Origin: a virus
Length of the DNA: 64,000 bases
Virus record (IMG/VR): IMGVR_UViG_3300025057_000003
Span: 1-64,000 of that record
Reading direction: 5' to 3' (one strand)
The position numbers were made by a program, and so were the translations under genes. This document shows, piece by piece, positions 28,990-64,000 of the stretch (positions are counted from its first letter, which is position 1; each line of letters starts with the position of its first letter). Below the pieces are notes generated by a model. It saw only the letters and a list, made by a program, of their open reading frames with translations. It did no database searches and was not told the DNA's origin.

Positions 28990-29241
28990 ATGGATGCAAT
29001 TTATAATAGCATGGGAGTAAGAGTCCCAGGAATGTTTAAGAAAGGAGGATCTGCACCTAAAGGATATCATTTTATGCCAGATGGTACATTAATGAAAGAT
29101 TCTGATCATAAAAAGAAAGGTGGTAGTACTACTAAAAAAGACTCTTGTTACTATAAAGCAAAAGCTGCTCATAAAGTATTTCCTTCTGCTTATGCGAGTG
29201 GTATGATTGCAAAGTGTAGAAAAAAGAAAGCTGGAAAATAA
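28990..29241 (+). CDS. tiny basic protein, DUF5872-like
   Basis: An 83-residue, strongly basic protein (about one third Lys/Arg). Residues 3-22 contain the motif NSMGVRVPGMFKKGG, shared with the next two genes. The C-terminal half reads SCYYKAKAAHKVFPSAYASG then MIAKCRKKK, a pattern I associate with DUF5872, of unknown function. It may be packaged with DNA or bind it (inference from charge). Overlaps the next gene by one base. Confidence 0.75.
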   Translation: MDAIYNSMGVRVPGMFKKGGSAPKGYHFMPDGTLMKDSDHKKKGGSTTKKDSCYYKAKAAHKVFPSAYASGMIAKCRKKKAGK

Positions 29242-29540
29242 TGGCAGTTAGAAAAACAGCAAAGGGTGCAGCTCTTAAACGATGGTTTGAGGAGAAATGG
29301 ACAGACCAGCATGGTAGAGAATGCGGTAGTCCTAAAACTAAGGGTATTAAGAAATGCAGACCTAGCAGAAAGGTTTCTAGCGAGACTCCTAAAACTTGGA
29401 GTCAAGTTGATAAAAATAAAGAAGTTGCTAAAAAGAGAAAAGTAGGAATGGGAAATAGAACTTCAAAAGCAAAGCATGGCGGAGAAGCCTGCTTTACAAA
29501 TACGGGAGTTAGAATTCCAGGAATGATTAAAAAGAAATAA
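29241..29540 (+). CDS. tiny basic protein, second of three
   Basis: A 99-residue, very basic protein. KRWFEEKWTDQHGRECGSPK and then KKCRPSRKVSSETPKTWSQ resemble a DUF5872-type sequence known from phages and large DNA viruses. The shared motif is here at the C-terminus, as TNTGVRIPGMIKKK, the reverse placement of its neighbours. It starts one base inside the first small gene and ends one base before the third. Confidence 0.72.
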   Translation: MAVRKTAKGAALKRWFEEKWTDQHGRECGSPKTKGIKKCRPSRKVSSETPKTWSQVDKNKEVAKKRKVGMGNRTSKAKHGGEACFTNTGVRIPGMIKKK

Positions 29541-29541
29541 T

Positions 29542-29847
29542 ATGGAGCCAGTATATAATTCAATGGGTGTTAGAGTTCCCGGCATGTACAAGAAAGGAGG
29601 TTCTACTCCTGCTTGGCAACGTAAGGAAGGTAAAAATCCCAAAGGAGGATTGAATGCAAAGGGTAGAGCTAGCTACAATAAAGAGACTGGTGGTAATCTT
29701 AAAGCCCCTAGCAAAGAAGTTGGCAATAAAAGACGTGCTTCGTTTTGTGCTAGAATGAAAGGTATGAAAAAGAAACTAACATCAAGTAAAACAGCTAATG
29801 ATCCTAATTCAAGAATTAATAAATCATTAAGAGCTTGGAACTGTTAA
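29542..29847 (+). CDS. tiny basic protein, DUF6321-like
   Basis: A 101-residue basic protein. The N-terminus repeats NSMGVRVPGMYKKGG, and the rest follows a pattern I recall as DUF6321: AWQRKEGKNPKGGLNAKGRA, then RRASFCARMKGMKKKL and TANDPNSRINKSLRAWNC. These are widespread in phages without known function. The highly conserved C-terminal Asn-Cys and the basic charge suggest DNA or RNA binding. Two bases separate it from the previous gene. Confidence 0.78.
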   Translation: MEPVYNSMGVRVPGMYKKGGSTPAWQRKEGKNPKGGLNAKGRASYNKETGGNLKAPSKEVGNKRRASFCARMKGMKKKLTSSKTANDPNSRINKSLRAWNC

Positions 29848-37182: not shown

Positions 37183-40100
37183 TGAAAAAGTCATATTCAA
37201 ACATAGAGCGTAGAGGTTTACCGGGTGGACCCAATGAAGAAATAAATTTTAGCAACTTAAGTTATTCAACTCAAGGCTATAAAAGATTTAGTCCAGATGT
37301 AAACAATCCATTTAATCTTATTAATTCAGGAAGAATTACAATGAAAGATGTGGACTTTCCTGTTACGGGTATTGATAATCTTGGATATAGAATGACAATG
37401 ATGCCAGATGAAGAATATGAATTTCCAGGTAATGAAGTATTAGAAATACCTCACAGAACTCTAGAGAGCTTGCAACCGCATCATAAAGATCATCATAATA
37501 ATATACATGCTTTTGCTGGTATAACAGGAGATGCTGTTAACCATATGGGAGTATATGGAGGATTTGATACAAAGCATTTTGGTTTACATGGCTCTTATTT
37601 AAAACCTTTACAACAAATAGCACATAACTCAGGTGATATGCATTTAAGTGCAGAGTATAGAGGTGGTAATAATAGATTAAACTTTAATGTAGGCCCTACA
37701 TTTAATATGCATGGTGGCCATCCTAGCTTTGGAGTACAAGGTGGTTTAAGATTTAACTTTCAACCAGGTGGTGAGATAGAAGAAGATATGATGTATTCTC
37801 AACCTATTGAAGATATTATTAGTGATAGGAAGAATGATAGCTATGAGTACAAAAGATCTCAAGATCCTAGAACAGGGGCAATGAGTTATTATCAAAGAAA
37901 GAAAGGTTCTAACACTTGGAGAGATGCGGGCAAAGAGGGAAGTACAGGATACAGAGCTGTAACTAATGTATTTGGGGATGACAAGACCGGCTATGCAAAC
38001 TCACCAGAGAGAGCTCAGTTTCTAGATAAAATGAAGATGAACTATAGAATGAAGGACCAAAATTATATTAGAGGTCTTTTAGATAAAGCAAATCATCCTT
38101 TAGATTTAGTTTATGGTAATCCACAATTAGGCATACCTGCTTTTGGAGAACAGATTAAAAATATGTCTGAGTATAGAGAAGATTTTTTTGATCCATATGG
38201 AGATCAAGAAGATAAATATTTTGCAGAGTATGCGGCAACTCCACAAGAAAGAAAAGCTGCTGCACAACGGGCAAGACAAAATTATTTAAGTAATGTAGGT
38301 AGAACTGAAGAGGAAGATCAAATATATGAAGCAAAAAGACAAAAAGAAATTGATGAAGAGCATGCTAAATGGAGAGCAGAAAGAGAAAAAGATAGATTAG
38401 AAATGGGTCATGATGGCTTTGGTGGAAATGTAGTTGGTGGATGGGAATACACAGGTCAAACTCCAGATGAATATTATGCAGATATGCAAGACTCTGGACT
38501 TGGGGAGATAATGGATTATACAGGTATGACCACAGCAATGAATGTACTTGGTGTAACTGATATTATGAAATTAGGTATGGATGTTGAAGAAAAAGGTATA
38601 GGTGCTTTAACTGATGGAGGTAATTTGTTGACTGTAGCAGGTTTAATTCCTGGTATTGGTATGCTTGGTAAAGGTGCAAATCTTGTGGGAAAAGGTAGTA
38701 AACTTATTAAAACAGGAAAGAACGTAACAAAAGCTATAGATACAGGAAGAGATGTATATAATAAAGCATTAAAGCCAATTAATAAAACTTTAAATAAAAT
38801 TGGAGATGCTAAAAGCAGCAGTAAAATTTTAAATAAATACGGTGTTGGAAGCTTGAGTGATTTTAATAAAAATGTTCTAAAGAAAAATATAATATCATCA
38901 TCTAATCCAGCAATGCAAAAAAATATAGATAATGTTTTTAATACTACTAAAAAGCTTGGATTATCAAATGACTTATGGGGTGCAGCTACTGGATATGGAA
39001 TGTATAATTCATTAGATGCTGTAGATAGAATAGTGCATGGTGAAGGTAGTACAGATGATTTTGTCAAAGCAGGATTAAATTTTATACCAGGTGCAAATAT
39101 TGCTAAATCAACAGGTTTAGCTACGTATGGAACAAAGGCTGGTTTAAAGGCTATAGATAAATCAGGAGTATTTGATGATGAAAAAAATGAACGTCAAATA
39201 TCTCAACAAAACAACCAATTAAGAACAACAATGTTTCAAGGCGGTGGTGAAAGCGGAAGACGTAACTTAAATGATCTTTATGTTTCACCTTCAGATTTAG
39301 CTTATTTAAATAGACCATCTACAAAGAATGATCCTAATGAATATTATTGTAACCCGGGTGATGTAGGTTGTTTAGCAAGCTCTTATGATGCATATGATAA
39401 ACTTGTTGGACAAAGATATAGAAGTGATGAATTTTTATCGGAGCAAGGTTTAAAAAAATCTCTAGGCTTGCAAAGTTTACCAAGCCGATGGGATTCTCGT
39501 TCCGGAACAGGATATGACTGGGACCCAGAAACAAATGATTTTGTTTATTATAAAAATGACCAGGAAACAAAAAGATATAAGCCTGGATCTACCACACATG
39601 ATTGGATCATGAAGTATAAAGATTATTTCCAAAAAGGATATGAGGGAGAAGAGCAAGGTGGAGGATATGACTTTACAGCTGATAGCTGGGATATACATGG
39701 GATTCTTGTAGATCAAGGTGGAAAGAATGTATTTACTGGCGGTACTGAGTGGGATAACTATAACAAAACGGGTAACATAATGACTCCTGAGAAATTAAAA
39801 AACCTTTATTCAGAAATGACTCCCGGAACAATAATAGGTTTTAATAATTATAATAAAGGACTCAATCCTAAAAAAGGATTAACAGGTTCTGGTCATAGTA
39901 CCCAAGTTGTTGGTTATGATGAAAGAGGTGTTCCTGTAATATATGATTATGGTGATTATCTTCCAATTGATAAACTTGGTTTAGAACAGGGAGGTTTATA
40001 TAGTATAGATCAAATAAGTAATATCACTATACCAAAAGAACATATAGGAAAAAATTTAGAATGGGCAAAAGAAAAAGGTTATTGGACAGGCGAAGATCCT

Positions 40101-41300
40101 AAAGATTTAAATCTTAATTTAGAACCTATACTATCAAGATGGGGTCAAGATGATGATGAGCTTCCTGATTTTTATGCAGGTTTAAAAGATGAAAAGTTTA
40201 ATTTGATGGATGATCTTAACCTTAAAGAAAGTCAATATGATCAAATGGCCGCTGCACTTATAGGCATTGCAATGGAAGAAACAGAAGGTGGAGGTGGTTT
40301 CCAACATAATATAGAACAACTTTTACCTGGTACGGCAGGTCAAGATACTTCTGGTTTAACTCAATTAATGTGGTCTAATATTGCAGACGATGAAAAATTA
40401 AAGAAGATTGCTGAAAAGTATGGAATTACTAAACAATCAGATTTAAAAGATTCTAAAAAGTCTGCTATTGCTTCTATGATATATGGATCAAGAAACTATT
40501 TAGCCGCACAAAAGAATTTAAAGGCGGGAAAAAAAGAAGGTATTAGAACATATTATCCTCCAGGTTGGAAAGGCACACTTAAAAGATTAAAAGGAGATAA
40601 CCAAGTATATGATGGAAAAACATTTATAACAGAAGGTGGAAAACAAATAGATTTATTTACTGGAAATAATTGGTCGGGTATTGGCTGGACAAAAGACTTA
40701 GAGGATATTCAAGAACAACTTGATGCTGCATCTGAAGCTGAAGGAATACCCGGTAGATACACAGCACGTAAAACTACAGATGATGATGGAGATGAAGTAA
40801 TTGTTATAGATAAAAAGACTTTAGGTAATGCAGATATGGATCCTATAGATGCATTTATTTATAATTGGAATTCACCTTATGCCTTAACATCTGGGGATGC
40901 TCAGGGTGGATCTGGTTATGTTAAAAATGTTAAGAGTTGGATGGATCAGATAAAAATGCAAGCTGGTGGTGAAATTACTCCAGAGCATGTTCAACAAAAA
41001 CAAAAAACGTTGGAAGAAGAGTTAGCTAAAATGGAACAATATAATTTGAATCCTGCTCAGAAGATGCAACTTACAGAATCACTTATTGATGCATATAATG
41101 ATACGGTTCCTTATAAATTTAAAATGGGTGGCCCAACTCTTCAACCAGAATTCCAAATGTATAAAGATTATATAGTGGGTAAAGATGAGAGTGAGGATGC
41201 TAGAAGAAACTATGATAAACTTAATAGAGTTTACTATAGAGAAGCCAAAATCAAAAACATGAAACCGGCTAACTATATAATGAGTGAGCTGATATCTTAA
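37182..41300 (+). CDS. giant virion protein with cysteine-peptidase-like and lytic-transglycosylase-like domains
   Basis: A 1372-residue protein, judged to be ejected cargo. Visible parts: a region of alternating strands at residues about 122-197 ending GLRFNF, like outer-membrane beta hairpins; a module at about 199-285 shared with the next protein; a hydrophobic helix region (about 480-520); a papain/NlpC-like domain with GDVGCLASSYDAY (C730) and SGHSTQVVGYD (H905); and a transglycosylase-like region GIAMEETEGG (E1032/E1033) with a GLTQLM motif. These could cut the peptide and glycan parts of peptidoglycan during entry. Double-Gly motifs (FQPGGE, FQGGGES, MQAGGE, KMGGP) flank domains. Start and stop of neighbours overlap by one base. 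Confidence 0.75.
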   Translation: MKKSYSNIERRGLPGGPNEEINFSNLSYSTQGYKRFSPDVNNPFNLINSGRITMKDVDFPVTGIDNLGYRMTMMPDEEYEFPGNEVLEIPHRTLESLQPHHKDHHNNIHAFAGITGDAVNHMGVYGGFDTKHFGLHGSYLKPLQQIAHNSGDMHLSAEYRGGNNRLNFNVGPTFNMHGGHPSFGVQGGLRFNFQPGGEIEEDMMYSQPIEDIISDRKNDSYEYKRSQDPRTGAMSYYQRKKGSNTWRDAGKEGSTGYRAVTNVFGDDKTGYANSPERAQFLDKMKMNYRMKDQNYIRGLLDKANHPLDLVYGNPQLGIPAFGEQIKNMSEYREDFFDPYGDQEDKYFAEYAATPQERKAAAQRARQNYLSNVGRTEEEDQIYEAKRQKEIDEEHAKWRAEREKDRLEMGHDGFGGNVVGGWEYTGQTPDEYYADMQDSGLGEIMDYTGMTTAMNVLGVTDIMKLGMDVEEKGIGALTDGGNLLTVAGLIPGIGMLGKGANLVGKGSKLIKTGKNVTKAIDTGRDVYNKALKPINKTLNKIGDAKSSSKILNKYGVGSLSDFNKNVLKKNIISSSNPAMQKNIDNVFNTTKKLGLSNDLWGAATGYGMYNSLDAVDRIVHGEGSTDDFVKAGLNFIPGANIAKSTGLATYGTKAGLKAIDKSGVFDDEKNERQISQQNNQLRTTMFQGGGESGRRNLNDLYVSPSDLAYLNRPSTKNDPNEYYCNPGDVGCLASSYDAYDKLVGQRYRSDEFLSEQGLKKSLGLQSLPSRWDSRSGTGYDWDPETNDFVYYKNDQETKRYKPGSTTHDWIMKYKDYFQKGYEGEEQGGGYDFTADSWDIHGILVDQGGKNVFTGGTEWDNYNKTGNIMTPEKLKNLYSEMTPGTIIGFNNYNKGLNPKKGLTGSGHSTQVVGYDERGVPVIYDYGDYLPIDKLGLEQGGLYSIDQISNITIPKEHIGKNLEWAKEKGYWTGEDPKDLNLNLEPILSRWGQDDDELPDFYAGLKDEKFNLMDDLNLKESQYDQMAAALIGIAMEETEGGGGFQHNIEQLLPGTAGQDTSGLTQLMWSNIADDEKLKKIAEKYGITKQSDLKDSKKSAIASMIYGSRNYLAAQKNLKAGKKEGIRTYYPPGWKGTLKRLKGDNQVYDGKTFITEGGKQIDLFTGNNWSGIGWTKDLEDIQEQLDAASEAEGIPGRYTARKTTDDDGDEVIVIDKKTLGNADMDPIDAFIYNWNSPYALTSGDAQGGSGYVKNVKSWMDQIKMQAGGEITPEHVQQKQKTLEEELAKMEQYNLNPAQKMQLTESLIDAYNDTVPYKFKMGGPTLQPEFQMYKDYIVGKDESEDARRNYDKLNRVYYREAKIKNMKPANYIMSELIS

Positions 41301-41363: not shown

Positions 41364-44300
41364 ATGGGTTATAGAGATTTAAACAATAGAGGTTTGCATG
41401 CAATGAGGATGCAGCAATTTATGCAAGGAGGTGGTCAACCACAAATGGCGCCACCACAAATGGAAGCAAAGCAATCCCCTATAGATGAACTAATACCTGC
41501 TATAAAGTCAGCTCTAGAACAAGGTGCTGCTTTACCAGACGTTATTGTTAGTTTAGCGCAAAATCAAGTTCCAATTGAAGCTATCCAACAAGCTTTAATG
41601 GCAGCAGGTATAGCTCAAGAAGAAATTCAGCAAGCTTTTCAAATGCTGCAACAACAGCAGGCTGAACTTGAAAGTCAATCTCAACAAACAGAAGGACCTG
41701 TTGAACCTTCTGCTCAACCACAAGGAGGGGCACCTGCTCCAGAAATGGCGCCTGAGCAAGCTCAAATGCCAATGGCACAAGGAGGTGCTGAAATTGGATT
41801 TGCTCAACAAGGTCAAAATAATGTAGGACCTTCTATTAACTCAGATATCCCAGAATACCAAGAACCTATTGAAGAAGTCATCAGTGAAAGACTTGATGAA
41901 GAAGGTAAGGTAATAAAGGATAATTGGGAATACAAAAAAACTACAGATCCTAACACAGGTCAGATTTTTTATGAACGAAGAAAAAAGGGAAGTAAAAACT
42001 GGATTGATGCAGGAGAAGAAGGTAGTAATTCATATAGAGCTATTACAGATATTTTTGGTGATGACAAGACAAATTGGAAAAGTTCTCCAGAAAGAGCGGA
42101 TCATGTAGCAGGTCTAAAGCAAGGCTATAGGGATATGATGGCAGCACAAAAAGCTAAAGAGTTAGAGGCTGCAGCTCAAGAGCAAGGTATAGACTTTTCA
42201 AAATATGGTGTTAAGGTAATAAATTATCCATATGAATATAAAGGTATGCCTCCTGGACACATTGAAGCCGTATTCTATGATAAAGAAACAGGTGAACCAA
42301 TGAATGAAGTTGGTGGGATATCAACTAGAATTAATAGATGGGGTTCAGGTTATGGTGGCGATGGTCCAAGAATAACAGGAGATGAAGGTTATACTCAAGC
42401 ACTGGTAGATTTTGATGCTTTAAACATGCCAGGTGTTAGAAGTGCAGACTTAGATTTGACTCCAGAACAAATGATGCAATTTATCGCTGAGGCTAATAAG
42501 TTCAAAGGTACATCTTATAAGAATTTAAATGAAAAACAAAAGAATTTCTTAAAGATGATTAACCCTGATATTAGCCAAATACCTATGGCTTTTGGTACGG
42601 GTAGTGATGATAATTATGATTTCTTAACTTCCAATTGTGCAGATGGTGTTTGTAGAGGATTAGGTTTAGATAGAGATCAGTTTACATCTGCAGGAATAAC
42701 TAATCCAGAAAAAGTTATGGATTACATTTTACAAGGTAATAATATAAGCAATGTACAAGGAAAAAAAGGACCAAGTAAAGAAGAGTTTTTAAAAAATGTA
42801 ATTGATCAATCTGGAATTAATAAGTATACAATTGGCGGCTTATCTGATAAAAATATAAACATGTTGTCTGATTTTGTAGATAATATATCTAGAGAAGAGG
42901 CACAAAATCTAGCAACATATGCACCAATAGCTGCTCACTATGGTAACAAAACAAAAGAGGTTCTTAATAGAGGTATTGACTTAGATCAGTCCTTCGGAGA
43001 TATGCTTACAAATACTGGTAACTATTGGCGTGATTTAATTAAGAATAGTGCTGCAACTGGAATTGCAGGATATATGGCTCTTCCAGATGGTACTATACCA
43101 ACTGCGTTAGATGCTGGAGCAAGGGAATATATTTATGAGCCCATAAAAGATGCAACTGGTGGTTTAATTGATTTAGATCAATCTGCGGGTGACATGTTTG
43201 ACAACACAGTAAAATATTGGAAAAGAGAAGGAATTGGCGGTCTTTGGCCTTTTGAACAGGGGGGACAACCAAATAAATATTCAAGTATAATAAATGGTAA
43301 TAAAATGAAATATTCAAATCTATTTAAAAATGGAGGTGGTTATAATAACCCAGGCTTTAGATCATTACCTCAATATGTTCAAAACAAAATAAAAAGGAAT
43401 GCTCAGGAGGGAACTGAAATAGCAGAAGCTATACCTTTAGATATATCTGCAGAACAACAAGCATATATGGATGCTAAAGCTGCATATGATGCTGAGATGG
43501 CTAGAGTGCAGGGTGTTAGAAATAAGACTGCAGAGTTAGCTAGAAAATATGGTGATGCTAATGCATCTTACTCAGATGTAGGTATATCAGATAGATTAGC
43601 AAATTGGATTAATGATACAGGTTTTGCTTGTAATACATATTCTTGTCAGATTATGAGAGAAGCTGGAGCAACAATTCCACAAGGAACCGAACCATTTGAA
43701 ATGAATGGTAGAACATATCGTCCTGGAGATAAGCTTCCTATTATACCAGGTAATGCTCAATTTAACTCTTACGCTGATAAGTTAGGATTTGAACTTATGC
43801 CCAAAGGTACATTGCCAACAGAAGCTGGAGATCTTGTTAGAGGGCATATGTATAATGCAGGTCCGGGTGCAAGTAGCGGTTCATTTCATAGTGTGCTTTC
43901 TGCAGGGTATGGTGATGATGAAATTTTAGATCTATATAATAACCCAGGAGGTGTGTATTCAGGATATCAAAAATCTGGATTTGAAGGTAGTGATCCTGAC
44001 TTTTATACAAATGATTCTGGTGTAATGAGATATGTTGGAGACTCAATAAGATTAAAAGAAGCAATGGATAAAGCTAAGCAAGCATATGATGCAACCATGC
44101 CTCTTGATCAATCAGTAGTTGATTCAAATCCAAACTCTATAGCAAACCTTACTAGGCAATATGGAGGTGAAGGTATGGCAGAAATTCAGCAAGGTCCTCA
44201 ACGTACACCTAGCACGGAAGAATTAATGGCTATAATACAAAAACAACAGATGCAAATGCAACAAATGCAAATGCAGATGCAACAAATGATGCAGGCGCAA

Positions 44301-44454: not shown

Positions 44455-47400
44455 ATGCCTAAAGTTAAAAACAGTAAACATAGGGTTGAGGTAACTTTAC
44501 CTGATGGATTTCAATTAGTAGATGGCAAACTAGTTAAAAAAGGACATGGTGGTCATGTTACCGGTGATCAATATGAGTATGGGTTAACTACATTTAATCC
44601 ACATGCTGGTGAATCTATGGGCCCAAAAGATACAGATGTAAAGTATAGCTTATCATCTGTACCTAGAGATATAGCTAATATAGAAGCTGAAGGTGGTGAA
44701 ACTGTTTTAACTGATTTAAATAATGATGGTCAGTTTGGTCTTTATGATATAGTTGGCCCTAGACATTCTAGCGGTGGTGTACCAATGTTACTACCAGAAC
44801 AATCATTTATTTTTTCTGATACCCAGGCAATGAAAATGGGTAAAGGTATGTTAGCAGAACATGGAATTCAGTCTAGAAAGAAGATGACTCCTGCTAAAGT
44901 ATCTAAACAATATAACTTAAATAAATATTACGGTATTCTAAATGATGAGTATGCAGATAAGATACAAGCTAATACAGCAGATCTTATGTTGCAGAAAAAC
45001 AAAGAAGGTTTATCTAAGTTAGCTTTTCAATCAGAGATGATGAAAGGATTTGAGGAAGGCGTACCTTTAGCCGCATATCCTTATATACAATCTATAGGTA
45101 TGGACCCATTTGAGTTTGCTCAAAAAATGGAAGGCATGCAGCAAGGTTCTGGTGATCAGCAAGCTCAACCAATGAATGAAGCAGATGCTCAAGCAATGAG
45201 TGCAATGGCTGCCTATGGTAGAGAATTAAATCAAGCTCAGTTTGGCTATGGTAACATTGGCGGAATGGGTTTTGATAATTATAGAAATTTCAATCAAGTA
45301 TTTGGTGAAGATATGGTACGTCCTAATATAAGGAGTGCTTATATGCCAATGAATCTTAATATGAAAGGGAATGCTATTGGTGCATTTAACAATCTTGTAG
45401 AAGGCGCTGGTAGATTATTTAGTAAGCAAGATGAAGATGGAGATGGTTTAGCTGATGGTGCTTTTAGAGATTTAAAAGCTAAAACTAATAGATATAGAGA
45501 TACTCATAAATTCTTAAAAGGTAAGACTACAGAGGGAATGGAGAATATGGGTGATAAAACTATGCTAAAGTATAATCCTGAAACAATGGGATATGATGTC
45601 CAGTATAATGATCCTAGATATCAATCTAATGTAAAAACGGGAGATATCTTTACAGAGAAAAGCAAGCGTAAACTAATGCATGCACCTGATCTAGAAGGCT
45701 ACAAGTCATTTAATGAAATGCAAAAAGAAATGTCAGGTTTATCTGATGATCAAAAAGACCAAATGAGATATATGGGTGAAAGCCTAACTGATTTTCAAAA
45801 CGAAAAGGTAAATATGCCAAAAGGGATGCAGTTTGGAATGGATGCTAGCGGAGGTATTGGATACTATGATGCGGGAGCAACTTTACCTGAAGGAAGTCAA
45901 GAGCGTATTAACGAAATGATGATGACAGGTAGTTATAATAAAAGACTTGGTGGAGGATTAAGAAAAGCTCAATTTGGAAACTTTGATTTTACACAATTAC
46001 CACCAGAGCTTGCAAAATATTTTCCTAATCAATCACAACAAGATTTTGGCCCTATGGGTCCTACACCGTATCAGCAAAAAATGATGAATCAAGCTGAGCA
46101 AATTAAGAATGATCCTGCAAGTTTTTTCCAAAACTTTAACCCGCAAACATTTGGTCAAACTGATGACTATGCTAATGTACAAAGTTTAGGTCCAGATCTT
46201 AAACTACAACAAGATGTTAAAAATAGAAATGAAGTAACTCCAGAAGATCCAGATCCACGAAATGCAGGAGAAAAATTAGCAGGAGGTATAAATAGAATGA
46301 TGAATAGCCCTCTTATGAATGCATTTGGTGAAGGTTCTGTTTTTGCAACTAAAGGTGCTGACTTTATAAATGAGATGGCAAAAAATAGAAAAAGAAAAAG
46401 AGCTGAGAATGATCTGCAGAGGATGACTATGGCAGATAATCAGTTTGGTATATCAGAGCCGGGTATATTATCTCAAGGTACTTATGATGAGAATACTGGT
46501 GATGTATTTTCAATTATGCAAGGTGTTTCTCCATTTGGAGGAAATGCTTCTTACTATGGTAAGCATGGTTTTGAAATACCTATGTTGCAAGATGGAGGAG
46601 AACCATCTTGGAAAGTAGGTGATGAGCTAACTGGAGGTACTGATGCTTGGACTGATTGGTATATGTCAGATGAGAATAAAGACGGAAGAAAGAAAAGATA
46701 TGAAACTTACGTATTCTTAAAAGAAGCTCAGGCAAAAAAGCAAGGAAAGACGTTTGATAAAAGCAAGCTTCCTACAGAAGAAGAATTTCATGATACTTAT
46801 GTAAGAGCTCAGAAACAAATCAATGCTATACAAAACTTTGATTTTGGTGATCCAGATTATTTAAAAAGAACAGATTGGGATTCTTCATGGGAGTTTGATC
46901 CTAAGTATAAGAATGCTAAACAAGCTTTAAAAGCTGGAGCAGCAACAAAAAGAGGTCAAAACTTTAGATATAAAGATGCAATTAAACAAATCAATGATAA
47001 GATTAAACAAGATGCTAAGGTAAACAATCCCGATATCACTGATGAAGAATTAAATAAACTTTTATTTAAAGAGTTAGATGACGCAGGAATTAGAATATTC
47101 CAAACAGGATATCAAGCTGGTCAAATAATGAATGTAGCAGATAATGATGAGTTTCTAAAGTTTATTCAGTCTGGTATTGATGATGACACATTTACATGGA
47201 ATGGTGTAACTTATACTATATCTCCTGAAGATGCAGCATTTGGTAATACAACTGTAGGTCAAAGAGAACAAACTACTGTACCTATATATCCTTGTAAACC
47301 TTGTCCTGATGGACCAGATAAAGGAAAAGTTCCTGAAAGAGATGAGGATGGTAATTGCCCTTGTGGTGATTGTCCTACATGTCCAGAAGGTAAAGTTCCC

Positions 47401-48342
47401 GGACTGCCAACTGAATCTGAACCATGTCCTTGTCAAGACGCACGAAAAATTGAAGAGCCTGATGATCCAGAAATGGCGGCTCCTCCTGAAATGACACCAT
47501 GGATTCAAGATCTAATTAAGACAGAAGCTATTGCAAATAGAGAAAGAGATATGTTCTTTCCATGGGAACCTGCAGTTAGAAGATCTAACTTAGAAGTAAT
47601 GTTAGAAGATCCTAACAGAGCAATTAATGCAGCTAATGCTCAATATGCAGCTTCTGCCCAAGCTCTTGGTGCTTTTGGAGGTAAGAATCAATTAGCAGCA
47701 AATTTATCTGGAATGGCTGGACAAGCTGCAGATAATGTTGCAAATATAATTGCTGGTGTAAATGCAAGAAATGTTGCAAGTGTTAACCGAGCTAATGAGG
47801 TTAATCAAAACATAGAAATGCAACTTAATCAATTAGAGGATGCAAGTAAAGTTAGACAGTATGATAATACTCAAAAAGTTCTACAAACATATATGGATGA
47901 AAAGAACTTTGATAGAGAACAATACGCAGATGCTATAGCTAATACAATTACAAATATGGCTAACACATATAATGTAAATCAAATGTATGACTACTTTAAT
48001 ATTGATCCACTAAGAGGAGGTGTTGTAGGTCAAGTAGGTGCTAAAGCATTCCAACCTACTCCAGAACAAGATGAGTGGGCATTTATGGATGATTGGATGG
48101 AAGCAACTAAAAGAGCTAAAACAATGGGTCTTGTAAATAAAGAGGGGAATGTTGATCCTGCAGTTATACAAGGAATACTTCAATCAAAAAGTGGTCAGCG
48201 TAACTATGCAGATCCAAGAGAAGAAGCATGGAGACAGCAGTATAGAAACTATATGGCCGGAGCTCAGACAAGAAAAACAGGTGGTCAACCTGAGATGAAG
48301 AAATGGGCTAGTCCATTTTATACAGGGAAGATGGGAGTATAA
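44455..48342 (+). CDS. giant conserved cargo protein, crAss-like
   Basis: A 1295-residue protein. Its first 220 residues follow a block I recall as common to crAss-like virion proteins: NIEAEGGETVLTDLNNDGQF, then GPRHSSGGVPMLLPEQSFIF, then KVSKQYNLNKYYGILNDEYA. The middle is Met/Gln-rich. A Cys-Pro region at about 950-1000 (CKPCPDGPDKGK, CPCGDCPTCPEG) may bind metal. The C-terminal 300 residues are helical, including a stretch with repeated Ala/Asn (about 1050-1120). It carries double-Gly motifs (KHGGEV-like KGHGGHV, LQDGGEP, RKTGGQP). ATG 44455 is chosen over an upstream GTG, since the previous stop lies between. No enzyme motif was seen. Confidence 0.78.
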   Translation: MPKVKNSKHRVEVTLPDGFQLVDGKLVKKGHGGHVTGDQYEYGLTTFNPHAGESMGPKDTDVKYSLSSVPRDIANIEAEGGETVLTDLNNDGQFGLYDIVGPRHSSGGVPMLLPEQSFIFSDTQAMKMGKGMLAEHGIQSRKKMTPAKVSKQYNLNKYYGILNDEYADKIQANTADLMLQKNKEGLSKLAFQSEMMKGFEEGVPLAAYPYIQSIGMDPFEFAQKMEGMQQGSGDQQAQPMNEADAQAMSAMAAYGRELNQAQFGYGNIGGMGFDNYRNFNQVFGEDMVRPNIRSAYMPMNLNMKGNAIGAFNNLVEGAGRLFSKQDEDGDGLADGAFRDLKAKTNRYRDTHKFLKGKTTEGMENMGDKTMLKYNPETMGYDVQYNDPRYQSNVKTGDIFTEKSKRKLMHAPDLEGYKSFNEMQKEMSGLSDDQKDQMRYMGESLTDFQNEKVNMPKGMQFGMDASGGIGYYDAGATLPEGSQERINEMMMTGSYNKRLGGGLRKAQFGNFDFTQLPPELAKYFPNQSQQDFGPMGPTPYQQKMMNQAEQIKNDPASFFQNFNPQTFGQTDDYANVQSLGPDLKLQQDVKNRNEVTPEDPDPRNAGEKLAGGINRMMNSPLMNAFGEGSVFATKGADFINEMAKNRKRKRAENDLQRMTMADNQFGISEPGILSQGTYDENTGDVFSIMQGVSPFGGNASYYGKHGFEIPMLQDGGEPSWKVGDELTGGTDAWTDWYMSDENKDGRKKRYETYVFLKEAQAKKQGKTFDKSKLPTEEEFHDTYVRAQKQINAIQNFDFGDPDYLKRTDWDSSWEFDPKYKNAKQALKAGAATKRGQNFRYKDAIKQINDKIKQDAKVNNPDITDEELNKLLFKELDDAGIRIFQTGYQAGQIMNVADNDEFLKFIQSGIDDDTFTWNGVTYTISPEDAAFGNTTVGQREQTTVPIYPCKPCPDGPDKGKVPERDEDGNCPCGDCPTCPEGKVPGLPTESEPCPCQDARKIEEPDDPEMAAPPEMTPWIQDLIKTEAIANRERDMFFPWEPAVRRSNLEVMLEDPNRAINAANAQYAASAQALGAFGGKNQLAANLSGMAGQAADNVANIIAGVNARNVASVNRANEVNQNIEMQLNQLEDASKVRQYDNTQKVLQTYMDEKNFDREQYADAIANTITNMANTYNVNQMYDYFNIDPLRGGVVGQVGAKAFQPTPEQDEWAFMDDWMEATKRAKTMGLVNKEGNVDPAVIQGILQSKSGQRNYADPREEAWRQQYRNYMAGAQTRKTGGQPEMKKWASPFYTGKMGV

Positions 48343-57700: not shown

Positions 57701-60700
57701 GCTTAGAACAGCTTAGTGATGATGAGTTTACTGAATTACAATCAAAAGACTTTTTAACATTAACTAAAGATCAGCAAGAATATTTAGCAAAAAGAGTTGC
57801 AACTCTAAAACAAGAGGAGTTAACAGATAGAGAGCTAACCGTATTAAGTTCTCCTGCGTCTAGTTTAATTAATGTTAGAGCTCAGGCATATAAGATAAAT
57901 GAAGGTCAACCTAAATCTAATGCAACAAGTGCAAGTACAATTGAGAATCAAAAGAAAGAGGTATCACTTGAAAAGCAATTAGAAGATCTTAAGTCTCAGT
58001 TAGACGCTAGAATGAATCAAGTTAAAGAAAATAACTCTGATCTTTTTGGTTTAGCTTTAATAAAAGCAATACAACAGGATAGCACTGTTAAGAGTCTTGA
58101 AAAGAAAATTCAAGAGGTTAGATTAAAACAAGGTGGCGCTAATAAAATATCAGATGATTTATCATTAGATGATGTAAGGCACATTGATGAGTTTGCTGCA
58201 TGGGCTGCTTCCAATTTACCTGAATTTATTACACTAGATAATATTGCAACTTTAACAGACAATATGAAGTCTGGTGGAGAAAGAGTGGGTGCTTTTGTTA
58301 TGTCTCTTGAAAAAATAGCAGGTAAAGAGAGAATAGGCGGTAAGTTATATGTTGGAGCAACATCTAAGTATGCATACCATGAAGCTTTCCATTCTGTATT
58401 TAGATTGCTATTAACAAAAGAACAACAAGAACAATACTATAAACTAGCTAAGAAAGAAGTTCTAGCTAAATTACGTGGAGAAGGTAAAAGCTTAAAAGAA
58501 GAAATAGAAGGTTTAAGAAATACAGACATTGCTAAATATAAAGATTACTCAAATGATAGAATGGAGAAAGAGTATTTGGAAGAATACATGGCAGATGAAT
58601 TTGAAGTCTTCAAACAAAGTCCAAGAAAAACAAAGACAGATTCTTGGATCAAGTCTCTTTTTAATAAAATACTTGAGTGGATTAGAAATGTTCTTGGGAA
58701 TTTCAACGGGCCTCAGCTTAGCCTCTTGTATAAAGATATTAGTTCAGGTAAATATAGACAGGCTGAAGTGGTGTCAAACCCATTTACGGATGATTTATTT
58801 AGTGGCGCTACTATTGACGCTAGTAAGCTTATTAGGTATAAAAAAGAAGTTTTAGAAAATGGAAAGGAGTTATATAAAAACCTTCCAAATAAACAGAGTG
58901 TTGGTATTATATCATCTATTGCAGCTAGAGTTGTTGATCTAGAAATGAAAAATGAAAGTGCAGACTTTGATATTAAGGATGCAGTAAAAAAGTCAATAGA
59001 GTTATACAAGGATTTATATAATCCAGATAATGCTCAGTATAGAAATTTATCTATACAGCAGCTTTTAGATGTAGGTAATATCTATGAAGCCTTTACTAAT
59101 TATGATAAAGATATATTAGAAAGTGTTGTAGATACTCTGGCAATTTATGATATCAAGCTAGAAGTAATTGAAGAATTAGATGAGGAGAATGAAGTAGAAT
59201 ATGGTTTAAGAACTACAGAACAATACGGTAAAGATGCTTCTCAAATAGGAGGAGCTAGATCACTATCTTCATTTTTAAGAAAGTATATTGCATCAACTAC
59301 ATTATCAGAAAAAGATGAATTTGGGAATGAGTATTTGAGCAATGGAGAACGTTTAATTGTTCCTGTAGATTTTAGTGTAGCATATTCTGGCTTCTTAAAA
59401 GCTGCAGCTGGTACAACAGATCCTATAAGAATTTTACAAAAGTTATATATATTTTCACAAAATAACCCACAAACAAGAGCAATTGTAGAAAGGTTATATG
59501 GAGATTTAAATTTAGTTTGGGAAGATCAACTTGAAGATGGTATTATACCAGCAGAAACTAGCAATAATTTATTGTTCCAATCAATGCTAAAAGGTTTTGA
59601 AAACTTTAAGATTGATTACTTATTCTTACATACAAATACAAAAGATGGTTCCGTAGTAGGTTATTCTGCTGCAAATAGAGATGATGCTCATACTCAAATT
59701 GAGAGATGGGAAACTGAGTATAAACATAGAAGAAGATTATACTTAGCAGATCCTAAATTAAAAGAAGAAGCTTCTGATGAACTTGCTAGACTATTGGAGT
59801 TTATCAATACTGATCAGCCTATAAATAAAATGACTAATGTTAAATTAGCAGAGGTATCAAAGAATATATCAGAGGCGCTAGCTAAAACAATGGGTATCAA
59901 ACTCCATCCTGATTATATTGCATATACTATTGCAAACAATATTACTAAACCAACTAAATATCAATCAGCATTATTAGAATCTCAAAAAGATGTTATTCTA
60001 ATAGATCCAGAGGCTATAATGTATATGAAGCAACAGTTTGATGGAGATGCAGATTTAATGTCACAGGCTGAAGACGAAGGTGTTTATAATAGATTGAGGA
60101 GATTAGGTTTAGGTAATGCAATGTTTGATGAAACAGTTGGAGCATCAGTCTTCAAAAATGCTAATGGAGATTTAGTTTATTCTCATCAATTGCCTACAAT
60201 GCACTTGAAAAAAATGGCAGAGCTAAATGATATTGTTAGCGATCCTACTAAAGTTGCAGAGCTTATTGAAAATGAACCTTACGTTGCAACTAATTATTTA
60301 TTAAATGATCCGGCATTCCGTCAAATGGCTAAGGAAGGCTTGCTTAAAATAACTAGAATATCTGGTAGTAAATCAAGTAAAGGTATTGAAGTAGATAGTG
60401 ATGGAGGTGTAATTGAAGGATATGATAGAAATGAAAAAGGAACTGTTTATGGAGATTATGATCCTAAACAATTCTTGGCTTCTTTGCTAAGCGCTTATAT
60501 ATCAGGTGTTAATCCAAAGTCTGGTAGATTGCAAGCTGGTGTAATTCCAGAGGGTCAAGATGATATGGTTGCATTAGCTCCGGTATTACTGAGAGTTATT
60601 GAAGCATCTAACACTGGTGACTTGTCTGCCTTACCTATAATAAAAGCAGTTGAAGAAAATGCAAAGGGTGAAGCTCAAATTACAGATCAAGCTTTAGACG

Positions 60701-63700
60701 CATATGTAAAAAATATAACTGCAGAGTTTGATAGAATACAAAGAGAGTTAAATCCATATACAAAAACTAAAAATTTAAAACCTGGATATAATGCAGATAA
60801 GAAAGGTCAAAAACCAGATCTAAATGGAAGAGCTTACAGATTTGCTAATAATAAACTTATATTAACTCCATCCAATTCAATAACTCCTGATGTAGAATCT
60901 GGAAAACTTTTAGATAGTAGCTCTACAATAACTAGAATTAGAGAAGGAAGTCAAAAACTATTTATAAAGACAGATGCTGCAGCAGTAGCAATGGGATTCT
61001 TTGCGGAAGGAGAAAGTACTAATTTAGAAATAGGAATAGGTGAGGAAACTAAAGTTGGAAAAGGTAAAAGAAGAGTATTTAAACAAGCTGCTAAAGACAA
61101 ATCTACATTCCATAGAGTTAAGTTAATTGGTAAGAAATCTGTAAATAACTTAACATTATTCAATGTTGAGGATATGTTAGGAGAGGCTATATCAGATAAA
61201 AAGACAAACACCCATACTAAAGAAGTAGAGATTGGAAATCAAACAAGATGGGTTGAGTCTGATGCAATGAAGGCATTTTTATTGGGTGAAAAGGAGTTCT
61301 TTGTTTATGAAGTAATTGAAAATGACTTAACTAATCTAACAGACGAAGAGCTTGACATACTAGAGAAAGAAGCTGTAGATCAAGAAGATTATGCTAAAGC
61401 TAAAGAAATAGCAGATCTAAGATCATATGGTGAAATAAATTATGCATCTGAATTAGAAAGAATTTTAAAAGAACATGCTAAAGAACAAGAAGGAAAATCT
61501 GAAGAAGATTATGAAACACTAACTTTAGAAGAAGCTCTTTCTAAAATTCCTAGCGATAAAGACATTAATCTAGATTCTTTAAAAGCTTTTATTACTGAAA
61601 GAATAGATCAAGAGTTTAAGCAATTTAATAAAGACATAAATAATGAATTCTATAGAGTAGAGGAAGATGGTAGTGTATACTTAGATTTACCTAGATTCAT
61701 ATCAACGGGTCTTAAGAGAAATGAGAACTCAACAGGTAGTGAAGCTGCATTTGAAAATGCAAATCAAAAGTTAAACCTTACAAATAATAGAACTCATAAT
61801 TTAAAGCAAATCTTTATTAATGACTGGATTAATACTACAGCAATAAATGATCTTTTGCTTGGTGATCAAGCAGTGTCCCTTAAAGATGGGGTTGATGCAG
61901 TTAAAAGAGCCAAAATGCAAAATGCTGCATACTATAGTGCAGCAAGCAGAATATCTTCTAAAAAACATAATGTATTGAATCCTCTGCAAAAGATATCAAT
62001 GTTTGCTGTGACAGATCCAATTGCGTCTTCAATACATACTAAAGAAAATATAGAGCAAGCAGATGCACAAAACTGGATGACTGTAAAAGCATTTAGATAT
62101 ATGTGGTTTGGCTTTGGAAAACTTACAGAAACTCAATCTAAATTGCTAGATAAAATAGAAGCTGGAGCTGAGATTTCAGTAGAGGAAATATTTGGAGCAG
62201 CCGGTGCCGTTAAAAAGCAAGAGATGTTAAACTCTAAAAAACTTGTTTATGGTGATGGTAAAGTGTTTGACAAATTCTCGGTAATACCTCTTAGTAAGGC
62301 AATGACATCTATGAAGGACAAAAACGGAAACTGGATTGCAAAACCAGGACGTGAGATACTTCATAATATGAGGGTAAAGATGGAGCAGTATGAACAAGAT
62401 CAGCTTGATCAAGGTATTGATACTGTTGCAATGGTGGCCCCTTTATCTGCTTTAAAAATGATGAAGGAGAATGTTTCATTAATTGATGATTTAGTAAATC
62501 CTAATGAAACTATTATTCAATCTCAAGGTAAAGGTACTGATGCTCAGTATATGGGTAGAAGCCTTTCATATGAGGCAGTTAAGTCAGGTAAACCCAATAG
62601 ACTTACTACGGATAATGTAATGGATCTTGATGCTAATTATATGGGTCTGCAAGTATTAAACCCTTCTAATAAAGAAGAGATTATAGATCCTACTCAGATT
62701 AAAACATTATTAACTGGTGAGCAAGATGACAAGGCCACAGTAAGAATTGATGGCGAGGTAGTTTCAATAGGAGCTTTAAGAAAAAGATACAATGAATTAG
62801 TTAGTGCAAGGCTAACTCAAAAGTATATAGATAAAAGAAATCTTATATTTGATATTGATCCTGAATATGCAATGGATCAGTTACATAAAAGTATTGAAGC
62901 AAAAAAGATAACACCTGATTTATATTCTTTCTTGAATTATGCTCAGACATCATTGCTAGCAAGTCAGTCATCATCACAATTATTAGAGTTCTTTTCATTT
63001 GATGAGGACGGCAATCCTACTTTTGATTTTGTCCAAGATTCACCAATGGTTGAAGCTAAGTTTAAGCAGTTATTCTTAAGCTATTTTAGTAAAGGAGTAA
63101 TGGCTGAAAAAATACCAGGTACCGGTGCGGCATTGCTTTCTGATTATGGTTTTTCTCAATATAGAAAGGTTTATAGTGTAGATGAAAATAACTATATAGA
63201 TAGACAAGAAATAATAAGAACAAATGATTTTGCTCAGAACTATTCTATGAGTGATGTGCAAATGGAAGGTAATGATGTTCTTGATTTATCCAATGATGAT
63301 AAGTTTGATGTATTAGCTCAAAGAGTTAATAAACTTAAGAAGGGTGAGTTTATTATAGTAAAAGATAGACTTAGACCTAATATGAAAGAATATAACATTA
63401 AAGGTGAATATACTGGAGTTAAATATTCCGAGGCTTTAATGCCTGCACATTCAAAAGAAGTTTATGAAAATTTAGATCTTTTAAAACCTGATGCAGCAAT
63501 TCCAGATTCAGTTGGTAAGATGTTTGGTATACGTATTCCATCCCAAGATAATCACTCTACTATAAATGTTAAGGTTGTAGATTTTTTACCTGTGTTTAAT
63601 GGATCAACGATAGTTGCATCAAGAGAACTTGTTGAGGTATCAGGAGCTGACTTTGATATTGATAAGTTATATCTTCAAATGAAAGAATACTATCTTAAGG

Positions 63701-64000
63701 ATGGTGAGTTCTTTGAGTATAAAAACAACTTTGAAGACTATGTAAGATATATTAATAAAAAAGTTAAGAAGAAAGGAAGTACTTATGCTGAAGCTGCAAT
63801 GAAAGCTAAGAAAAGAAAAGGTAAACTTTTATCTGACGCAAAGTTTGAAGCAGCTAAAAAAAGAGGTTTTGATGTTCAGGCAATTCATGCTTTAAGAATA
63901 TTAAACCTTCCTTTAACTAAACCAGAATACAATAAATATGTAGAAACAACAGGAAGAGCTCCTTTTGCGGCAGGGTATAATAATGAAATATTAGATGTTA
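51766..64000 (+). CDS. giant virion RNA polymerase fused to HExxH metallopeptidase (partial, runs off window)
   Basis: One open frame from 51766 to the window end without a stop, more than 4,078 residues. Residues about 225-285 are hydrophobic (TVALGLATPVTGGASGAAAV), a candidate membrane-active segment. Residues about 450-1150 are long helices. A zinc peptidase signature YHEAFHSVFR (H2205, E2206, H2209) is followed by EEYMADEF (E2272/E2273 as likely third ligand). Near the end come IRIPSQDNHSTINVKVVDFL and SGADFDIDKLY (D3962, D3964, D3966), the metal-binding loop of the two-barrel RNA polymerase of crAss-like virions (as in Cellulophaga phage phi14:2). It would enter the cell with DNA and start early transcription. 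The peptidase may trim this or other cargo. Confidence 0.93.
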   Translation, partial: MSNLDNTVFNNEIANTPVGVPPDQFTFETISDLEIPADLEAFDEAVDPQYQAMLNSASDEINKTIASPIANMNNLPGAAGGRYNPAAQQEIPSPDTMEGKIRLFQNINKRTPQISKTDNIFGDNTVNIKDPTYSGIAATQFDRYYAHPAFSRLGFRPYRNNEEFYNTHSSGWEDAQRMFGQLNKLMGTGYLSSYRSWFEDDVMDLKSAIEYEDAVRIGSSSRGGFGAGLNNFVLNSGYTLGIIGSIAVEELAMWGATVALGLATPVTGGASGAAAVATGTAAAARTAYNAGRLAKAFRSIGQSFKIGKAFQATRTMVNSFKNIDKVRDLHSAVRGTGNVLGKILAPETVRAFKQLNSAKKAGENITNMAKVSKTIGGFYRDLRSMNFALSEGRMEGGSVYKEQWEKEFIIALDKNREAGLGDNLSYEQLQGVNERAKAAALTTTLFNAPVIYLSNQLLLGNAFGGYKRSINQIAREGIEGAASRVIRGKAATKVIKDTVKKQAGKEAGKQGKRQVQKQLYESVEDGFMNWRSTLKKVKSAGLRGGATMAGAAALRFTANNLSEGIQEVYQEAVAEGIKDYYTNLAFDPLAGGSDMFNASLSHGIKSQMSAQGLHTFASGFFMSTLVGGPQKLIFQTMPELYQATFNKEQYQNYKAQKEAEVTRIVDSMNEYGDALAQDPTNLFGLEKMQYATQKQAAEAMEEAQANDDLMGFIDMKDHAKFHNMFTLFETGKTDFFKEQLEDYLSLTDQELAEAFPDRKADAKSGKLRNSIQNQITKLDKMEQWFAQNKDKIQVTAKPENFEKGSREHQDEQIKFLAQRHAKYLYLFTKDGFERAAERTDAIYEKLATDPIIKDLAANDLTVFLTKDALLTEIGQLKGEVEILGDPGSKQAKKQKEKKLAHLEKIADVLYNEEYLNKDGSFDKRRIGKLMPLIGAYLDDVAKTRNGFVDNEMLLDTVKSIIDHNHLSVRQAMYDRALRVMTDPAYLDDLLTAGKLYFKFAYENRKALFREAIEKFINKQEINQLLNALADLGVYPDMDSTILFSQTGDPKDLGSFYNAEGIVNKVDDPELYEKIENAIDIYRQTATDALKKAAEKAKKEAEEEAKARTAEKASSSVDQILAEEGVDAPESKIIGKTKEESPVLDQTLQRLFSEMKALGLKKGFTINPSWEKFLESDLAKEHITAYNGLKKLWYQTLTALPEEERMNRFNKDIGFIDWLKLQGTNDLVQKVLAESAIGVGAIRIQAFIPEVEAEIRSDEKREVDSKTSDSINIQTRLIFDHSTGEQTTIFILTDKNNNIIDEEIYTSVGIDPIRANAGFRTRKEANDAIKLMANLVPVTASFTFDGQTLTYADVVEDINTKKKYVIISDANTVDRYGNLLLMKIEDIGKLNPKQAIAKAVKSKELNLSEGDFQKRFATEQLNAGIASLPANVTKLNVREATRLIPHRTNFDTNFPENEELARRRYDFIIKNLTPEQLKQLKVKVRVRPDGGKDIGYVKFEDKAANPFIKKTRAPYDIEIIVPDEILSPILEKLPKEIKKPEGNALGYIPNGNVVLLDRTNGTVINPLSITADQVKDLFDITGSSKEQAAEDIKQNFAIQFTIMNSIAEKLGDSAEMEMSLEDIGGVNFFSTPGAMLFDGIDKPVNDLNIRTVDGLTIILENTKLKNGKVATRLIHNGERGEGPTLQRKIKNEMDAQNPNLYEGATGTSRYTMVVKSASGVYSYFPVKTPPLSDESLQTIADTLIKRSVETAKENFTLEGKGKTQKTKLKNLQYNSTFNADLNSNESQDIPKFYIAGKPGYTFELAVTANGSVSIKVYDRKLQQSQYVGLSAEDVATYAESENKADFIKALITNYNDYLSNLDPEKVDTKKKAFFTNLKKNGALKENALKESFEELAPAEEISDAVTTQVGPSVRKKSALVANISGVDSQNIKSTPIISRTTSGVFTPSERFTDAQGKPIPKGPAMTTSTESLNIAGEIGSLEQLSDDEFTELQSKDFLTLTKDQQEYLAKRVATLKQEELTDRELTVLSSPASSLINVRAQAYKINEGQPKSNATSASTIENQKKEVSLEKQLEDLKSQLDARMNQVKENNSDLFGLALIKAIQQDSTVKSLEKKIQEVRLKQGGANKISDDLSLDDVRHIDEFAAWAASNLPEFITLDNIATLTDNMKSGGERVGAFVMSLEKIAGKERIGGKLYVGATSKYAYHEAFHSVFRLLLTKEQQEQYYKLAKKEVLAKLRGEGKSLKEEIEGLRNTDIAKYKDYSNDRMEKEYLEEYMADEFEVFKQSPRKTKTDSWIKSLFNKILEWIRNVLGNFNGPQLSLLYKDISSGKYRQAEVVSNPFTDDLFSGATIDASKLIRYKKEVLENGKELYKNLPNKQSVGIISSIAARVVDLEMKNESADFDIKDAVKKSIELYKDLYNPDNAQYRNLSIQQLLDVGNIYEAFTNYDKDILESVVDTLAIYDIKLEVIEELDEENEVEYGLRTTEQYGKDASQIGGARSLSSFLRKYIASTTLSEKDEFGNEYLSNGERLIVPVDFSVAYSGFLKAAAGTTDPIRILQKLYIFSQNNPQTRAIVERLYGDLNLVWEDQLEDGIIPAETSNNLLFQSMLKGFENFKIDYLFLHTNTKDGSVVGYSAANRDDAHTQIERWETEYKHRRRLYLADPKLKEEASDELARLLEFINTDQPINKMTNVKLAEVSKNISEALAKTMGIKLHPDYIAYTIANNITKPTKYQSALLESQKDVILIDPEAIMYMKQQFDGDADLMSQAEDEGVYNRLRRLGLGNAMFDETVGASVFKNANGDLVYSHQLPTMHLKKMAELNDIVSDPTKVAELIENEPYVATNYLLNDPAFRQMAKEGLLKITRISGSKSSKGIEVDSDGGVIEGYDRNEKGTVYGDYDPKQFLASLLSAYISGVNPKSGRLQAGVIPEGQDDMVALAPVLLRVIEASNTGDLSALPIIKAVEENAKGEAQITDQALDAYVKNITAEFDRIQRELNPYTKTKNLKPGYNADKKGQKPDLNGRAYRFANNKLILTPSNSITPDVESGKLLDSSSTITRIREGSQKLFIKTDAAAVAMGFFAEGESTNLEIGIGEETKVGKGKRRVFKQAAKDKSTFHRVKLIGKKSVNNLTLFNVEDMLGEAISDKKTNTHTKEVEIGNQTRWVESDAMKAFLLGEKEFFVYEVIENDLTNLTDEELDILEKEAVDQEDYAKAKEIADLRSYGEINYASELERILKEHAKEQEGKSEEDYETLTLEEALSKIPSDKDINLDSLKAFITERIDQEFKQFNKDINNEFYRVEEDGSVYLDLPRFISTGLKRNENSTGSEAAFENANQKLNLTNNRTHNLKQIFINDWINTTAINDLLLGDQAVSLKDGVDAVKRAKMQNAAYYSAASRISSKKHNVLNPLQKISMFAVTDPIASSIHTKENIEQADAQNWMTVKAFRYMWFGFGKLTETQSKLLDKIEAGAEISVEEIFGAAGAVKKQEMLNSKKLVYGDGKVFDKFSVIPLSKAMTSMKDKNGNWIAKPGREILHNMRVKMEQYEQDQLDQGIDTVAMVAPLSALKMMKENVSLIDDLVNPNETIIQSQGKGTDAQYMGRSLSYEAVKSGKPNRLTTDNVMDLDANYMGLQVLNPSNKEEIIDPTQIKTLLTGEQDDKATVRIDGEVVSIGALRKRYNELVSARLTQKYIDKRNLIFDIDPEYAMDQLHKSIEAKKITPDLYSFLNYAQTSLLASQSSSQLLEFFSFDEDGNPTFDFVQDSPMVEAKFKQLFLSYFSKGVMAEKIPGTGAALLSDYGFSQYRKVYSVDENNYIDRQEIIRTNDFAQNYSMSDVQMEGNDVLDLSNDDKFDVLAQRVNKLKKGEFIIVKDRLRPNMKEYNIKGEYTGVKYSEALMPAHSKEVYENLDLLKPDAAIPDSVGKMFGIRIPSQDNHSTINVKVVDFLPVFNGSTIVASRELVEVSGADFDIDKLYLQMKEYYLKDGEFFEYKNNFEDYVRYINKKVKKKGSTYAEAAMKAKKRKGKLLSDAKFEAAKKRGFDVQAIHALRILNLPLTKPEYNKYVETTGRAPFAAGYNNEILDV

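Follow-up and report, generated by a model that had tools for sequence, protein, structure and literature searches.

The window analysed here, i.e., the first 64 kb (64,000 bases) of the 115,584-base virus record IMGVR_UViG_3300025057_000003, belongs to a genome with terminase, portal, head, and muzzle-type genes, and judging by these genes the phage is a divergent crAss-like phage. The muzzle-type open reading frame (ORF) 30766 matches the muzzle protein of csAssE-Sib and has 263 relatives in viral contigs, and the cargo genes follow it directly, as expected of Crassvirales C1-type virion cargo. The subject of this analysis is a short double-glycine motif that recurs in the cargo proteins and in small basic proteins of the same window. 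Twelve peptides of this kind had been listed in a first-pass annotation, and all twelve are present, in ORFs 28990-29241, 29542-29847, 37182-41300, 41364-44453, and 44431-48342 and in the giant ORF that starts at 51727, although FEQGGQP and RKTGGQP are not strict matches and LKQGGAN is located in the giant ORF, where the motif is at chance level. The sharpened consensus is Φ-[Q/K]-x-G-G-[E/S]-[L/T/V/I], with the enriched core [FMYLIHWA]-[QK]-x-G-G.

Expected motif counts were obtained from composition-matched local shuffles. With the strict form [FMLYI][QK]x?GG applied to the phage's own genome, three classes of ORFs show an excess of sites: cargo ORFs 37182, 41364, and 44431 (7 vs. 2.1 expected), small basic ORFs (2 vs. 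0.15), and small late ORFs outside the window at 75.6–83.2 kb (narrower bounds 76.8–80.1 kb; 5 vs. 0.8). The excess in the muzzle ORF is marginal (2 vs. 0.6). Counts were close to expectation in upstream structural ORFs (1 vs. 1.6), in replication and other ORFs (2 vs. 1.6), and in the large RNA polymerase (RNAP)-type ORFs (2 vs. 1.9). The number of GGs alone was rejected as a signal, its enrichment being weak and non-specific: the cargo ORFs of the window contain only slightly more GGs than expected, and some other GGs in motif proteins look structural (e.g., GG88 and GG115 in the C1-type domain of ORF 44431).

A tblastn search of named phages with ORF 44431 and a pattern scan of viral contigs with chosen peptides returned no match, because the ORF is too divergent or the peptides are too specific. 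Relatives were found via the muzzle gene, and the muzzle ORF used as query retrieved 80 loci; after removal of proteins with >50% identity, they provided 124 post-muzzle proteins for comparison to 165 upstream and 11 muzzle proteins. The sequence [FMYLIHWA]QxGG occurs 139 times in the post-muzzle proteins, a tenfold excess over the shuffles (13.9 ± 3.8), and the K form [FMYLIHWA]KxGG occurs 99 times (21.6 ± 5.1 expected). In both control sets ΦQxGG stays at expectation (6 vs. 5.7 in the virion proteins encoded upstream and 2 vs. 2.9 in the muzzle proteins). The looser form ΦxxGG without Q/K was discarded as a candidate signal (270 vs. 250 expected in post-muzzle proteins). The proposal of the first-pass annotation that a short signal is shared by otherwise unrelated virion-type proteins holds beyond composition-matched shuffles; a lack of enrichment over these was the refuting outcome it had named.

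Residue preferences around GG were specific to the post-muzzle proteins, and none were seen in the upstream or muzzle control sets. At position −2, Q is found before 228 of 1048 GGs (53 expected; 4.3-fold, z = 24) and K before 159 (85 expected). Other preferences are M, Y, and F at −3, E and S at +2, and L, T, I, and V at +3, and almost any residue can stand between Q and GG. Motif density rises from 0.12 per 1000 residues before the muzzle gene to 1.7 after it, with a peak in the second gene after the muzzle (3.0) and a low value in the fourth (0.6). At least one site is present in 68 of 72 relatives (median five), and the first two or three post-muzzle genes have 1–6 copies per protein.

The first-pass annotation had also noted that the motif is often located between predicted domains, and homology breakpoints agree. 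Motif sites lie ≤15 residues from a breakpoint in 131 of 179 cases (77 expected), compared to 327 of 636 other GGs (279 expected). The comparison is partly circular, as alignments may stop at a motif simply because it is conserved. In two AlphaFold models, motif sites fall in segments with a predicted local distance difference test (pLDDT) score below 50; both models have low overall confidence, so this shows an absence of predicted order, not proven disorder. Individual joints give clearer evidence. In the homologue of ORF 37182 from locus L067, a single FQDGGE aligns to both FQPGGE (residues 193-198) and FQGGGE (685-690), which implies that a 487-residue cassette was gained or lost exactly there. 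Similarly, the stretch between the two GGS sites of ORF 28990 is missing in L067_8137, a LysM domain starts 2–3 residues past GG in L015, L026, and L050, and the GG before the C-terminal domain of ORF 37182 is invariant in 12 aligned sequences whose upstream parts do not align.

Modules swapped, inserted, or lost at these joints include LysM, SLT, lysozyme, CHAP, YkuD, ART, and small basic domains, and the cargo of relatives encodes LysM, SLT, lysozyme, YkuD, glucosaminidase, and ART-PolyVal domains. With a CHAP-like domain in ORF 41364, the domains listed for the relatives, and the shuffling of modules, single polypeptides combine several unrelated effector or binding domains, as polyvalent proteins do. 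We interpret it as a short linear motif that occurs lineage-wide in the polyvalent cargo proteins of crAss-like phages. Two further observations concern cargo modules: the cargo gene directly after the muzzle gene at L048:16398-20366 encodes a polyvalent-protein ADP-ribosyltransferase domain (E = 2.5e-12), and residues 262-537 of ORF 44431-48342 recur in a different cargo protein of L009 and L067 (~50% identity), indicating that this module moved between genes.

A companion element, [L/I/V]-P-K-A-Q-x-G, often follows the motif. In the relatives, P[KR]ΦQxG occurs 40 times (0.7 expected), and the second G is missing in 35 of the 40. At least 120 viral stretches contain DNA that codes for GGxLPKAQxG, and 115 of the 120 viral matches listed are in frame in an ORF of ≥150 codons, compared to only 20 of 62 matches in bacterial and archaeal genomes (257 Gb searched). 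One cellular match, a 1139-codon ORF encoding GGALPKAQFG, is on contig WLWP01000004 (L266; 114,697 bases), which is binned as part of a Pseudomonadales genome and looks like a mis-binned crAss-like phage.

The motif extends to other crAss-like genomes, as the first-pass annotation had suggested checking. Five Steigviridae proteins (ΦcrAss001 gp45 and four homologues) show a variant form, [F/Y][A/S]xGG (10 vs. 0.63 expected), and have the Q/K form at chance (2 vs. 2.2). By inspection, similar sites exist in Cellulophaga phi4:1, csAssE-Sib, and Lbo-JY46, and only a few candidate sites were seen in Suoliviridae. Leptolyngbya phage Lbo-JY46 (L091, PP438436.1) encodes FQxGG sites and a homologue of the crAss-like muzzle protein, and its stated host is a cyanobacterium, an assignment that deserves a check. 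No description of a signal of this kind was found in the literature searched, consistent with what the first-pass annotation had stated: we found no paper that reports LPKAQ or QxGG in crAss-like phages, and none that reports cleavage of crAss cargo.

Three neighbouring small basic ORFs share a terminal tag, YN[NS]xGV[KR][VI]PGM[FYI]KK, which is N-terminal in two and C-terminal in one (the C-terminal copy of the window is degenerate: CFTNTGVRIPGMIKKK), with GG between tag and body in either arrangement. In the window and in relatives L059 and L067, three small basic proteins have a peptide of the YNNxGV[KR]VPGM[FY]KK type at the N or C terminus, and in L004 one does. The bodies of the three neighbouring proteins of the window include DUF6321 and DUF5872. 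Over 80 residues, the DUF6321 module (29542-29847) shares 92.5% identity with proteins of Pelagibacter phages HTVC033P and HTVC115P; hundreds of cyanophage records match it as well, and the surrounding genome is crAss-like. PKGYH(F/V)MPDG and DUF6321 are encoded in separate ORFs here (28990-29847) and are fused in one protein of Prochlorococcus phage P-HM2 (L085:1922-2815), encoded beside terminase genes. Immediately upstream of the muzzle gene region, relatives encode a varying set of small, very basic proteins (L034:8102-9031, L057:8607-9028, L059:7999-9095, and L067:8137-9082), some of which have the tag and others not. The positions of all features are listed in Table 1.

Table 1 Double-glycine motif sites and associated features of the window, in order of position.
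Feature	Position	Strand	ORF, residues, and remarks
FKKGG(S) motif	29035..29049	+	Small basic ORF 28990-29241, residues 16-20; after tag MDAIYNSMGVRVPGM
Second junction, around KKGGS	29113..29127	+	ORF 28990, GG at residues 44-45
C-terminal tag form GGEACFTNTGVRIPGMIKKK	29478..29540	+	ORF 29241-29540; in relatives GGEPLYNNVGTRVPGMYKKK, GGEPVYNNMGTRVPGMYK
YKKGG(S) motif	29587..29601	+	DUF6321 ORF 29542-29847; after tag MEPVYNSMGVRVPGM
FQPGG(E) motif	37758..37772	+	Cargo ORF 37182-41300, residues 193-197; left cassette joint
487-residue cassette	37770..39242	+	ORF 37182, ~residues 197-687; absent from L067 homologue
FQGGG(E) motif	39234..39248	+	ORF 37182, residues 685-689; right cassette joint
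Possible NlpC/P60- or papain-like cysteine peptidase region (GCLASSYDAYDKL ... GSGHSTQVVGY)	39354..40016	+	ORF 37182; by sequence resemblance only
MQAGG(E) motif	40956..40970	+	ORF 37182, residues 1259-1263
FKMGG(P) motif	41118..41132	+	ORF 37182, residues 1313-1317; just before conserved C-terminal domain
MQGGG(Q) motif	41421..41435	+	Cargo ORF 41364-44453, residues 20-24; near N terminus
MAQGG(A) relaxed motif	41772..41786	+	ORF 41364, residues 137-141; beside domain common to ORF 37182
FEQGG(Q) relaxed motif	43251..43265	+	ORF 41364, residues 630-634
FKNGG(G) motif	43323..43337	+	ORF 41364, residues 654-658
CHAP-like domain, predicted cell-wall hydrolase	43503..44039	+	ORF 41364, residues 714-892
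LQDGG(E) motif	46585..46599	+	C1-type cargo ORF 44431-48342, residues 719-723
RKTGG(Q) relaxed motif	48271..48285	+	ORF 44431, residues 1281-1285; near C terminus
LKQGG(A) match	58123..58137	+	Giant ORF; motif at chance level there
Zincin site HEAFH	58378..58392	+	Giant ORF 51727, residue 2218; same site in ΦcrAss001 gp47

The earlier interpretation of the motif as a common packaging or processing tag stood in part: the shared joint signal was recovered, but a general packaging tag and the named processing enzymes were not. RNAP subunits are virion cargo in ΦcrAss001 (PMC10172136), and the large RNAP-type cargo ORFs have the motif at expectation, so the signal does not mark every cargo protein; motif density is also low in the gene that follows the C1-type protein. 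The giant RNAP-type ORF (51727-64000 in the window) runs to base 67461 of the record from a listed TTG start, and the ATG 39 bases downstream (51766) is a likelier start, giving ~5230 residues. Among the cysteine peptidase-like domains put forward as processing enzymes, the one modelled (ORF 41364, residues 714-892) is CHAP-like, with matches to the CHAP endolysin domains of Ly7917 (Z = 8.8) and LysK (Z = 6.1). Foldseek searches with both whole AlphaFold models, the first of which has a mean pLDDT of 57, gave no significant match, and Pfam detected no C5/C48-type cysteine protease in the proteins scanned (a subset of ORFs). The zincin is not supported as a partner enzyme either, as Bacteroides phage DAC15 has motif-bearing cargo and no HEAFH-type site anywhere in its genome.

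Our tentative preference, short of an even chance, is for a multivalent docking and hinge motif. Each copy would act as a docking and hinge element, in which the aromatic or Met side chain and the Gln side chain bind repeated sites of the inner virion (portal, tail-barrel ring proteins, or muzzle) and GG forms a tight turn. Modules could then be stored like beads on a string and thread out successively during ejection, and a common joint would let them be exchanged without loss of function. Gene order beside the muzzle gene suggests that the cargo may be delivered into the host with the DNA. Support for docking comes from the restriction of the enrichment to post-muzzle proteins, the position in predicted disordered linkers at joints, the exact cassette gains, the LysM domains that start shortly past GG, the background codon use at Q/K, and the mostly in-frame viral copies of GGxLPKAQxG. 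Preferences on both sides of GG, together with a companion that mostly has no second G, suit binding better than a protease specific for GG. In ΦcrAss001, gp45 has an ordered, portal-bound segment (residues 425-552) and an ordered tail-barrel helix (214-245) (PMC10172136); the segment begins with A425-F426-G427-G428, apparently uncut, and the helix begins just past the GG site at 209-210.

Several points weigh against docking. Many proteases likewise read a GG that is preceded by specific side chains and an unconstrained residue, and only one motif copy of ΦcrAss001 is known within an ordered segment, at its very edge. In addition, it is gene order and partial resemblance that suggest a virion location for the motif proteins of the window.

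Cleavage is a serious rival to docking, although we consider it unlikely on balance. A phage or host protease would cut after GG during assembly or post-injection and free the modules, similar to the maturation of adenovirus core proteins or the T4 capsid-targeting sequence, and the small basic proteins would lose their YNNxGVKVPGMYKK tags as targeting peptides. The sites are positioned as this requires, in predicted disordered linkers at module joints and, for tags at either terminus, at the boundary of tag and body, and the strongest preferences would be at P5, P4, P2, and P1. Processing has been proposed for polyvalent proteins, and P1 DdrB undergoes it ahead of packaging (PMC5512222). Moreover, four GG sites lie between the two ordered parts of gp45, which are ~420 Å apart (PMC10172136), and if the protein were cut, no chain would have to span that distance. 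Docking is nevertheless favoured because the AFGG of gp45 is part of the ordered segment in the published structure, so that a cut there is disfavoured, because GG can be followed immediately by Pro (7 of 252 sites, including several at one conserved joint), because the companion element mostly has no second G, and because the search for a matching protease found none, with a CHAP-like fold for the modelled cysteine peptidase and no zincin in DAC15. Q and K at the would-be P4 also misfit the M, I, or L of an adenain-type [MIL]xGG site.

A passive flexible hinge, in which GG and polar neighbours are a convenient leftover joint linker with no partner, is less probable still. It fits the position in predicted disordered linkers, but it needs neither Φ at −3, nor the more than fourfold excess of Q and the enrichment of K at −2, nor E/S at +2, and ΦxxGG without Q/K is not enriched. 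We regard it as highly improbable that what is conserved is a nucleotide stretch promoting module exchange, with the peptide as its mere consequence. Exchange does occur exactly at the motif, and the first G codon of the motif is somewhat biased to GGT (0.74 vs. 0.57), but the residue between Q and GG varies almost freely and codon use at the motif equals background for Q (CAA: 0.83 vs. 0.82) and K (AAA: 0.80 vs. 0.79), therefore selection acts on the protein. Chance or composition would yield some matches in GG-rich proteins (~14 ΦQxGG sites in the relatives), but it is refuted because the count exceeds that of local shuffles tenfold and the internal controls do not deviate from expectation.

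Taken more broadly, it is rather probable that Crassvirales share a joint signal, Φ-[Q/K/A]-x-G-G with LPKAQxG, which would be read by one virion receptor or maturation protease and would make injected polyvalent proteins exchangeable cassettes. Few gut viruses are as abundant as Crassvirales, and the motif bears on how their multi-megadalton cargo is stored and ejected, a question that it makes directly testable in cultured phages (ΦcrAss001 and DAC15). It is also relevant to a published puzzle, the simultaneous presence of gp45 in head and tail, either as a bridging intact chain or as cut fragments, and offers a simple way to split otherwise unannotatable cargo proteins into modules.

Prohead proteases of T4 and jumbo phages cut after Glu-type sites, and the adenovirus protease has a consensus of the [MIL]xGG-x type. 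Compared to the prohead protease sites, those described here have GG and are internal repeats, and no assemblin-type protease was found. Both the adenovirus sites and ours have GG after a short specific stretch, and adenovirus protease substrates include small basic core proteins and N-terminal peptides, similar to the small basic tagged proteins of the window (adenovirus maturation is reviewed in PMC4246237). However, the residue two positions before GG is hydrophobic in adenovirus and Q/K here, and no adenain homologue was found in the subset of ORFs scanned by Pfam. Like the T4 capsid-targeting sequence, the tag is a short terminal peptide common to unrelated small, putative head, proteins. 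The Crassvirales cargo protein 1 of ΦcrAss001, gp45 (PMC10172136; PDB 7qog, 7qol), has the same place after the muzzle gene and repeated ΦxxGG sites (NIFDTGG, FSAYGG, AFAEGG, KAFGG, NAFGG, and FAYGG), with A/S/D instead of Q/K at −2; no description of this motif was found in that paper. The C1-type domain of gp45 resembles part of ORF 44431 by eye, as does its portal-binding domain, and a phmmer search of PDB sequences (gp45 included) with ORF 44431 did not return gp45. The polyvalent proteins (PMC5512222) are likewise large and multidomain, are thought to be co-injected with DNA, and shuffle effector, cell-wall, and DNA-binding modules, and the crAss-like phages compared here have an ART-PolyVal domain and HEAFH zincins; the published description of polyvalent proteins mentions neither glycine nor linkers in its main text, and the joint motif is an extra feature of the crAss-like lineage.

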